This document shows positions 1,104 to 49,528 of a stretch of DNA of 64,000 nucleotides, piece by piece. The notes under the pieces were generated by a model that was given only the letters and a program-made list of their open reading frames with translations, was not told the DNA's origin and did not search any database. The position numbers and the translations under genes are program-made. The DNA comes from Candidatus Brocadia pituitae (lineage in GTDB: Bacteria > Planctomycetota > Brocadiia > Brocadiales > Brocadiaceae): the NCBI GenBank assembly GCA_017347445.1, contig AP021856.1, forward strand, positions 2,984,613 through 3,048,612, given 5' to 3'. The stretch's first letter is position 1, and each line of letters begins with the position of its first letter.

Positions 1104-1232
1104 TAGTTAAAACCATGCAAAAAAGTAGAGGCGAAGCATTTGCCAGTTTTGGTATGAATGCATGTATGCCCATTATAGCAAATGCTTCGCCCCTACACTG
1201 CGCGGCAAACATCAGCCATTCTTGGAATTTTC
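1104..1232 (-). repeat. MITE-like element, family A copy 1 (reverse, one end lost)
   Basis: In reverse orientation this matches the copy at 4849-4997: a core inverted repeat of the type GTAGGGGCGAAGCATTTGC around a spacer with CATACATGCATTCATA, preceded by an arm like TTCCAAGAATGGCTGATG. The end that should carry the terminal repeat is replaced by the start of copy 2, which suggests nesting or fusion. The other end is degenerate. Confidence 0.65.
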
Positions 1233-1364
1233 GTAACAGTTTTGCTTTTTGAAAAGTTTCCAAAATAACAACGTTTTATGTGCCGTGTAGGGGCAGGTTT
1301 CAAACCTGCCCCTACAATAAATAATATCATTCATGCAAAATGTTTTCAAAAAACTACCCTGTTA
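1233..1364 (+). repeat. MITE-like element, family A copy 2 (core type B)
   Basis: It begins GTAACAGTTTTGCTTTTTGA and ends TTTTCAAAAAACTACCCTGTTAA, an imperfect terminal inverted repeat. The centre is the palindrome GGGGCAGGTTTCAAACCTGC (type B core). The left arm resembles that of type A copies (GTGCCGTGTAGGGG). It lies between the partial regulator and sdhA. Confidence 0.7.
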
Positions 1365-1405
1365 AGCAAAAAGGAGGTTTTTCCCAGGATAATGCTATAA
1401 CGCCG

Positions 1406-4833: not shown

Positions 4834-4848
4834 AGCCTAATAATTTTC

Positions 4849-4997
4849 GTAACAATTTAGTTTTTTGAAAAATTCCAATAATGGTGATGTTTGACGTGCA
4901 GTGTAGGGCGAAGCATTTGTAATAATTGGCATACATGCATTCATACATAAACTGGCAAATGCTTTGCCCCTACTTTTTCAAAAAACTAAATTGTTAC
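4849..4997 (+). repeat. MITE-like element, family A copy 3 (core type A)
   Basis: It has terminal inverted repeats GTAACAATTTAGTTTTTTGA and its complement ending AACTAAATTGTTAC, nearly perfect over about 24 bases. The core has GTAGGGCGAAGCATTTG facing CAAATGCTTTGCCCCTAC. It fills most of the gap between mdh and pyrE; the bases 5000-5160 after it are AT-rich with no gene seen. Confidence 0.85.
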
Positions 4998-5166
4998 TAA
5001 TTTTCAAATCTCAAATACCAAAGTCCAAATAAATTCCAAATATCAGATTCCAAGATAATCCAATCCATTCATTTGAAATTTTGTGCTTTTCTATTTGAAT
5101 TTATTTGGTATTTGGAATTTGTTGTTTGGTACTTATCAAAGCAATCAATCTTTTACAAACAATACA

Positions 5167-6330
<1,164 letters not shown>

Positions 6331-6404: not shown

Positions 6405-6540
6405 CACGGACAAGCATACAGACTGGGTCAAATGAGTATTTTGCGGTTATATATAGCAGTTGTAAATTTACACACTACAATATGATGTACAGCAATCTCT
6501 AAAAAATGGCCATTTGACCCAGTCTGATAGCTTGTCCGTG
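6405..6540. repeat. 136-bp element with compound terminal inverted repeats
   Basis: Both ends carry CACGGACAAGC followed, 3 bases inward, by CAGACTGGGTCAAATG, and the right end is the exact complement of both blocks. The 76 bases between are AT-rich and hold no open frame. The structure is that of a non-autonomous mobile element. Together with the hairpin at 6274 it accounts for much of the 520-base gap between mdh and the TMTC-like gene. Confidence 0.75.
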
Positions 6541-9004: not shown

Positions 9005-9059
9005 TGAAGATGATGGGTCATTGAATCAGACCTTTGACCACTTATTGAAAGTGAACATC

Positions 9060-9156
9060 GAACCGCAGAACAAGGAATTTAGTAGGGACACGGTGCTCCG
9101 TGTCCCTTCATCATTCAACATTCCTTGTTCGATATCCGGCGTACTGCTTTTCAATG
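9060..9156. repeat. Palindromic repeat, family B copy 1
   Basis: GAACAAGGAAT and ATTCCTTGTTC form outer inverted repeats about 64 bases apart, and inside them GGGACACGG and CCGTGTCCC form a second hairpin. The outer flank GGCGTACTGCTTTTCAATG is also shared with the copy at 18238-18336. A short relic is near 31237. Confidence 0.75.
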
Positions 9157-9182
9157 TAAAGCGACGAGGCTCGTCGCTCTAC

Positions 9183-9240
9183 ACCCCCCCCTCTTTCCCC
9201 TCGTAAACGGGGGGATTATGGGGGGTAATTGAAATTCCTT
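9183..9240. repeat. G/C-run repeat (family C)
   Basis: A C-run, CCCTCGTAAACGGGGGGATT and a GGGGGGTAATTGAAATTCC tail. The same arrangement recurs at 14681-14758, 35540-35600, 59829-59995 and 61325-61430. It lies directly downstream of phoU. Confidence 0.6.
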
Positions 9241-18124: not shown

Positions 18125-18237
18125 TTTATCTGATTATGTTCACGATGTTATGATATTTCTGAGCATTAAAAATCAGTTCACGATGTTATGATAGCAACCA
18201 ATTAGGCCTTTGGCAACTTAATTTAAAGAGAAGATCA

Positions 18238-18336
18238 AACCGCAGAACAAGGAATTTAGTAGGGACACGGTGCTCCGTGCCCCTACTTCATCATTCAACA
18301 TTCCTTGTTCGATATTCGGCGTACTGCTTTTCAATG
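18238..18336. repeat. Palindromic repeat, family B copy 2
   Basis: It is nearly identical to 9060-9156: AACAAGGAATTTAGTAGGGA, an inner hairpin GGGACACGG/CCGTGCCCC, ACATTCCTTGTTCGATATTC and GGCGTACTGCTTTTCAATG. Confidence 0.75.
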
Positions 18337-18400
18337 GAGAACGAAGAAATTCTTCTCTCTGCAACAACTTTGAAATTCCTATACATCAGGTATGAACGCA

Positions 18401-22900: not shown

Positions 22901-22904
22901 GTGG

Positions 22905-22987
22905 CACGGACAAGCTTTGCTTGTCCGTGATTGCATGCAAAGTGGTCCGGATCTTGTTACCACACGGACAAACGGAGTTTGTCCGTG
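22905..22987. repeat. Two CACGGACAA-family hairpins
   Basis: CACGGACAAGC/GCTTGTCCGTG (22905-22929) and CACGGACAAAC/GTTTGTCCGTG (22963-22987), each with a 3-base loop. They lie just after the ABC ATPase stop codon and could slow transcription or protect the mRNA end. Confidence 0.65.
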
Positions 22988-23040
22988 CCACCACGACATT
23001 GGACTGCAACCAACATTGCTCCGCCCTTTTGCTGTAGTAA

Positions 23041-25392: not shown

Positions 25393-25527
25393 ATAACAAT
25401 TTAGTTTTTTGAAAAAGAATATCCATATATCATCGATATTACGGTAGGGGCAGGTTTCAAACCTGCCCCTACCTAGCGATGGCATACCGTGTCGTTATTG
25501 AAATTTTTCAAAAGACTAAAGTGTTAC
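25393..25527 (+). repeat. MITE-like element, family A copy 4 (core type B)
   Basis: Terminal repeats ATAACAATTTAGTTTTTTGA and CTAAAGTGTTAC, with central palindrome GGGGCAGGTTTCAAACCTGC flanked by GTAG/CTAC. It is closely similar to the copy at 29240. A short C/G-run repeat (about 25575-25618) separates it from glyQ. Confidence 0.85.
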
Positions 25528-29239: not shown

Positions 29240-29378
29240 GTAACAATTTAGTTTTTTGAAAAACAATATCCATGTATCATCGACATTACGGTAGGGGCAG
29301 GTTTCAAACCTGCCCCTACATAACGACGGCATACCGTTGTCATTGTTGTTGAAATTTTTCAAAAGACTAAATTGTTGC
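29240..29378 (+). repeat. MITE-like element, family A copy 5 (core type B)
   Basis: GTAACAATTTAGTTTTTTGA at the left, AAAAGACTAAATTGTTGC at the right and the GGGGCAGGTTTCAAACCTGC palindrome in the centre. It lies upstream of the desulfurase gene. The rest of the gap to 29602 is AT-rich with no gene seen. Confidence 0.85.
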
Positions 29379-49376: not shown

Positions 49377-49528
49377 GTAATAATTTAGTTTTTTGCAAAC
49401 TTCCAAACAATAGCAATGTTTGTCGTGCCGTGTAAGGGCGAAGCATTTGCTATGAAGGACATGATCACGTTCTCACCAAAACGGGCAAATGCCTGGCCCC
49501 TACTTTTTCAAAAAACCAAAATTATTAC
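49377..49528 (+). repeat. MITE-like element, family A copy 6 (core type A)
   Basis: GTAATAATTTAGTTTTTTGC at the left and CAAAAAACCAAAATTATTAC at the right form the terminal repeats. The core has GTAAGGGCGAAGCATTTGC facing GCAAATGCCTGGCCCCTAC. Its right end covers the TAA stop codon (49525-49527) of the regulator gene, so the element supplies the end of that coding frame. Confidence 0.85.

Follow-up and report, generated by a model that had tools for sequence, protein, structure and literature searches.

Probable IS66-type MITEs with variable palindromic interiors in the genome of Candidatus Brocadia pituitae

Copies in the analysed window

The window, the whole stretch of 64,000 nucleotides analysed here (G000:C1:2984613-3048612, with G000 denoting the genome that carries it), contains six short copies with palindromic cores, one of which (4849-4997) sits between pyrE and mdh (Table 1). 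The two core types that had been predicted are both correct, with three copies each: type A matches lie at 1128, 4905 and 49435, type B matches at 1290, 25447 and 29294. Terminal repeats of about 24 bp had been assigned to all six copies, and five of them have recognisable ends. The copy at 1104 comprises a type A core and an arm, but shows 7-8 errors compared to the end motif, and its right arm ends at the start of copy 2 (1233). It is also true for the window that no transposase with these ends is present. Other palindromes (CACGGACAAAC..., GTAGGGACACGGTGCTCCGTGTCCC...) are located outside IS66-type ends at 6270-6305, 6405-6540, 9044-9183, 18221-18363 and 22901-22991.

Table 1. Elements, cores and target duplications in the window, in window positions.
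Position	Strand	Feature
1125..1232	-	Truncated type A copy: core 1125-1196 and arm; terminal repeats unrecognisable; arm abuts next element
1233..1365	+	B2-type element of 133 bp; terminal repeat on the right degenerate; target duplication not seen
1287..1315	.	Type B core GTAGGGGCAGGTTTCAAACCTGCCCCTAC
4841..4848, 4998..5005	+	Target-site duplication TAATTTTC (perfect, 8 bp) on both sides of the 4849-4997 element
4849..4997	+	Type A element, complete at 149 bp; its 20-bp terminal inverted repeats are perfect
4903..4973	.	Core hairpin (type A) in the copy at 4849, GTAGGGCGAAGCATTTG...GCAAATGCTTTGCCCCTAC
25393..25527	-	Type B1 element, 135 bp; flanks diverged
25444..25472	.	Type B core
29240..29378	-	Type B1 element, 139 bp
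29291..29319	.	Type B core
49377..49528	+	Type A element, 152 bp; flanks GAGTTATC / GATTTATC, 7/8 alike

Abundance of the end motif

The 20-bp end motif GTAACAATTTAGTTTTTTGA, searched with at most 3 mismatches, occurs 8 times in the window compared to 0.01 matches expected. Genome-wide (a single contig of 4,075,302 bp) there are 185 matches, and only 2 for the reversed motif used as control, so that the terminal repeats occur far above chance. Copy counts are based on pattern searches and on the sequence stretches around the matches. Among the matches listed we reconstructed about 50 complete end pairs of 117-374 bp, plus one of 64 bp. Being short (64-374 bp), non-coding and bordered by reconstructed terminal inverted repeats, these elements have the characters of MITEs.

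Exact matches to the ends in named genomes, among those listed, stem mainly from Candidatus Brocadia, Jettenia, Kuenenia, Loosdrechtia and unnamed Planctomycetota, with a few otherwise-labelled records; in viral contigs no exact match was found. The 64-bp element (G000:C1 654410-654473; L010 987-1050) consists of little besides its two terminal repeats, is flanked by a perfect ATAATTCG duplication and represents a shortened version of a 373-bp type. Longer end pairs of 1.4-4.1 kb, present in G000 and in relatives, were considered as a possible transposon and rejected, the three with ORFs listed holding ordinary host genes. Lone end motifs were seen just before the start codons of a dinB-like and a radC-like gene (L057 near 1510 and L074 near 1485, respectively), with no second end nearby in either case.

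Target duplications and orthologous sites

The flanks of the end pairs are alike at a width of 8 bp (mean identity 0.74, compared to 0.39±0.02 after shuffled pairing), and the peak appears at this width only. In G000, 13 of these 8-bp duplications are perfect and 29 of 50 rows, one row being a compound pair, agree in at least 7 of 8 positions. Among 69 pairs from relatives, 26 have a perfect duplication and 39 reach at least 7/8 (13 of them at 7/8). Such duplications also flank elements with several rarer cores that are neither A nor B. Duplications on elements with differing cores indicate that the whole element was moved and not the core alone.

Comparison of orthologous sites points in the same direction. 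In G008 the pyrE-mdh element is present with the same duplication (94% identity over the region). It is missing from 8 of the 9 relatives of the genus with readable synteny (G001-G007, G010), whose spacers hold other sequence and are too diverged for an exact single-target junction to be visible. For G009 no syntenic match to this region was found. Occupation of the same orthologous place in all relatives, which would have spoken against movement, is thus not what we observed, this copy being shared with one of the nine readable relatives. The spacer holds a free GTAGGGGC-type palindrome in G004 and G006 and a GGTGGGCATCGCCCACC palindrome in G007.

Clean empty sites, for which joined flanks served solely as queries, were detected in G007 for the copies at 151806 (B2) and 1293307 (B1), with the single 8-bp targets GAAATCTT and GAAAAATC, respectively. 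At the site of the type A copy at 3532758, G007 has AAGAATTT-GTAAC-AAGAATAT, a deletion footprint. This fits a near-precise loss by deletion between the short direct repeats GTAACAA at both ends. In G008 the two flanks of this site lie 150 bp apart, as if filled. With target duplications, empty sites and lineage-specific presence, the mobile, MITE-like character proposed in the original prediction is supported.

An IS66 transposon with nearly identical ends

When 33 genomes of the family were searched by profile for IS66 transposases, inspection of the element ends revealed IS66-family elements of 2412-2413 bp (G004, G041, G045) and 2368 bp (G020). These elements of the relatives possess perfect 24-bp inverted ends GTAACACTTTAGTTCTTTGAAAAA, and eight copies are surrounded by perfect 8-bp duplications (one in G041, four in G004, three in G020). 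The end consensus of the MITEs, 23 bp long, is identical to these ends at 21 of 23 positions. An IS66 element with exactly the MITE ends (GTAACAATTTAG) was not found among the genomes searched, the IS differing at 2 of 23 positions. Similarity between the MITEs and the IS66 element is confined to the first ~26 bp.

The element that was read whole (L216) has two long ORFs, encoding a transposase with the domain DDE_Tnp_IS66 (PF03050, E=9e-38) plus zf-IS66 and a DruA-domain protein (PF14236, 3e-40). DDE_Tnp_IS66, GTAA-type ends and an 8-bp duplication characterise the element of the relatives as a member of the IS66 family. In its GTAAC-type ends and its 8-bp duplications it matches published IS66 elements: ISDge4 has GTGACTACTCAGCA/GTAACTGCTCAGCA ends and an 8-bp duplication (PMC12898284), and IS66 elements with 8-bp duplications are listed in PMC3281130. 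Ends, duplication and both transposase domains resemble the ISBst12-like group, but the autonomous element of the relatives carries the DruA-domain gene in addition, and the MITEs retain just ~26 bp per end. The layout with two long ORFs is compatible with the group that has a single transposase ORF, such as ISBst12 (PMC12898284). The DruA-domain gene lies beside the IS66 transposase at L216:2720-3601, with copies in G004, G020 and G045; otherwise the domain takes its name from the Druantia defence system.

In G000 only one decayed copy exists (L078), near 2767520-2770272, with a 1-bp deletion in its end. Its transposase is left in separate pieces matching residues 170-228 and 354-523 of the intact protein. 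On the first scan none of the four IS66 matches of G000 had shown an end match, and L078 was recognised as the decayed copy afterwards. A full-length element with a transposase, which the original prediction proposed to look for, thus exists with nearly identical ends as IS66 in the relatives, and G000 keeps a relic of it. A second IS66 end type, GTAACTATTCAGCG, is flanked by perfect 8-bp duplications in L211, L226 and L228, and in L198 an apparent MITE with ends of this type is nested inside a type A element.

Diversity of the palindromic cores

Sorting the cores genome-wide yielded more than the two predicted types. At least nine palindromic interiors occur within the same ends in G000, and further types in relatives. 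Besides core A (GGGGCGAAGCATTTGC) and core B (GGGGCAGGTTTCAAACCTGCCCC) there are interiors around CTCCCAAACTCCTGTTTGGGAG, CACGGACAAGC, GCGCGGGTGG, CCCCTCTTTTTAGAGAGG, GGTGGGCATCGCCCACC and GCTCCGTTAGGAGCG and the 373-bp type; some of these are single-copy, and the GGTGGGCATCGCCCACC case (L042) has one recognised end only.

Cores A and B each constitute a dispersed repeat of its own, found outside the ends as well. Among 61 A cores of G000, 33 have two ends, 19 one end and 9 none; for the 30 B cores the values are 22, 3 and 5, and in both cases the class without ends may include copies with badly decayed ends. B cores without ends are found in G024, G025, G028, G031 and G036, which belong to other families (13-29 cores each), and ends (up to 295) without B core in at least eight genomes, G001, G002, G005, G009, G012, G018, G020 and G030. 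Core B is therefore distributed independently of the ends among the genomes.

Exchange of modules

Three subfamilies are clean, namely A (~150 bp), B1 (~136 bp) and B2 (133 bp). Copy 2 of the window had been regarded as a hybrid of an A arm and a B core. This view is not supported: it is an ordinary member of B2, a subfamily with 7 left arms recovered across the genome. The B2 left arm is clearly homologous to that of B1, none of 3000 shuffles scoring as well, whereas its resemblance to the A arm is only weak, with 24 of 3000 shuffles doing equally well.

The idea of swapping survives at the level of the family, where many palindromes share the same ends and core B is independent of them, but loses copy 2 as its evidence. 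At 654924-655062 a recombinant carries a B1 left arm and a B2 left arm around one B core. A target duplication was looked for at this recombinant and none was seen, as expected of recombination between two copies. In L042 a type A arm is joined to the GGTGGGCATCGCCCACC palindrome. Together, these two cases indicate that exchange has happened. Two core-less elements in relatives resemble deletion derivatives rather than empty ancestors.

Interpretation and alternative explanations

These elements are very probably non-autonomous IS66-type MITEs, whose constant ends would be moved in trans by an IS66 transposase and whose palindromic interiors vary. An IS66-family transposase acting in trans would recognise the ~24-bp ends (GTAACAATTTAGYTTTTTGAAAA), and the MITE would insert into AT-rich intergenic DNA, thereby duplicating 8 bp. 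The mobiliser may be the IS66 element of the relatives or a closely related one whose ends are exactly those of the MITEs. The ends alone are conserved across types, which leaves the interior free to change. Cores may be gained when free palindromes insert into MITEs and when copies recombine with each other. Present activity in G000 is probably little or none, given that its own transposase of this type is broken. A more speculative extension, which we put forward tentatively and consider rather doubtful, is that the IS66-type ends are a general vehicle: independent dispersed palindromes would enter the MITEs, amplify along with them and be exchanged between copies through recombination at the hairpin they share, and what is conserved inside would be a structure (the hairpin tip) instead of a sequence.

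Alternatively, selection might maintain the hairpin cores as structured RNA or DNA, be it as terminators, as mRNA-protecting structures or as an aid to transposition, so that the element would be a portable regulatory hairpin and not passive cargo. In line with this, 83% of the interiors fold far better than shuffled sequences (z<-3), compared to 4% of control segments, and they do so across core sequences; furthermore, all 55 A/B elements examined are intergenic. However, the elements are not strongly concentrated between convergent genes: 8 lie in convergent, 9 in divergent and 36 in tandem spacers, compared to 1, 5 and 19, respectively, for the spacers of the window, numbers too small for a reliable comparison. 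Nowhere in the window is there an Rfam match. Moreover, cores also occur free, and the same spacer holds different palindrome types across species, as for independent repeats. We therefore regard selection on the hairpins as unlikely.

That the cores are of REP/REPIN type and moved by a Y1 (RAYT) transposase, with the IS66-like ends being secondary, is considerably less likely still. Free palindromic cores do exist, the free A and B cores being short, dispersed and mostly intergenic like small dispersed palindromic repeats and REPINs (PMC3116915), and G000 has 11 Y1_Tnp matches. However, core palindromes adjoin none of the 8 Y1 loci examined among these 11 matches, the few core or end matches there being distant, and no RAYT association was seen. 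For the main core types, ends and 8-bp duplications mark the whole element as the moving unit, and most A/B copies adjoin at least one IS66-type end, whereas REPINs lack such ends.

Origin of the cores as relics of different internal deletions of IS66 rather than as captured repeats is highly improbable: MITEs are usually born by internal deletion of an IS and the 64-bp element was shortened with its duplication intact, but beyond ~26 bp no match between MITE interiors and the IS66 element was found, and the B core occurs without ends in genomes of other families.

Comparison with other MITEs

Non-autonomous IS66-type MITEs would have a counterpart in MITEPsy1 of Pseudomonas syringae (PMC3189936), which is likewise short and non-coding, shares its ends with an IS and generates a target duplication of constant length. 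MITEPsy1 has 4-bp duplications and a single form of 100 nt (PMC3189936), whereas here one end type encloses at least nine unrelated palindromic interiors. The kind of family is thus already known; what is new is the many interchangeable palindromic interiors. We found no description of the family in the literature on anammox MITEs, IS66 MITEs and Brocadia mobile elements, a survey that covered subscription journals little.

The results connect a large family of these genomes, made up of short repeats, with one lineage of IS66 transposons and show that short dispersed palindromes are able to travel inside MITEs. This offers a route, open to testing, by which two kinds of repeats that are usually handled separately could spread. 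With copies at differing stages (filled, empty, footprint, recombinant), it becomes possible to measure insertion, loss and exchange.

Free palindromes outside the elements

Presence and absence of free cores in relatives was mostly uninformative due to mosaic spacers; two free cores are shared with G008. At G000:C1 3997232-3997330 two free palindromes, type A followed by GTAGTGGCAATTCATGAATTGCCACTAC, are fused head to tail. The fusion is also present in G008, and the matching spacer of G007 holds different palindromes. At 3836142-3836170 (G000:C1) and in L335, a B-type palindrome apparently forms an in-frame part of a gene, in G000 as well as in G008, where, judged by eye, it reads ...GFKPAPT...
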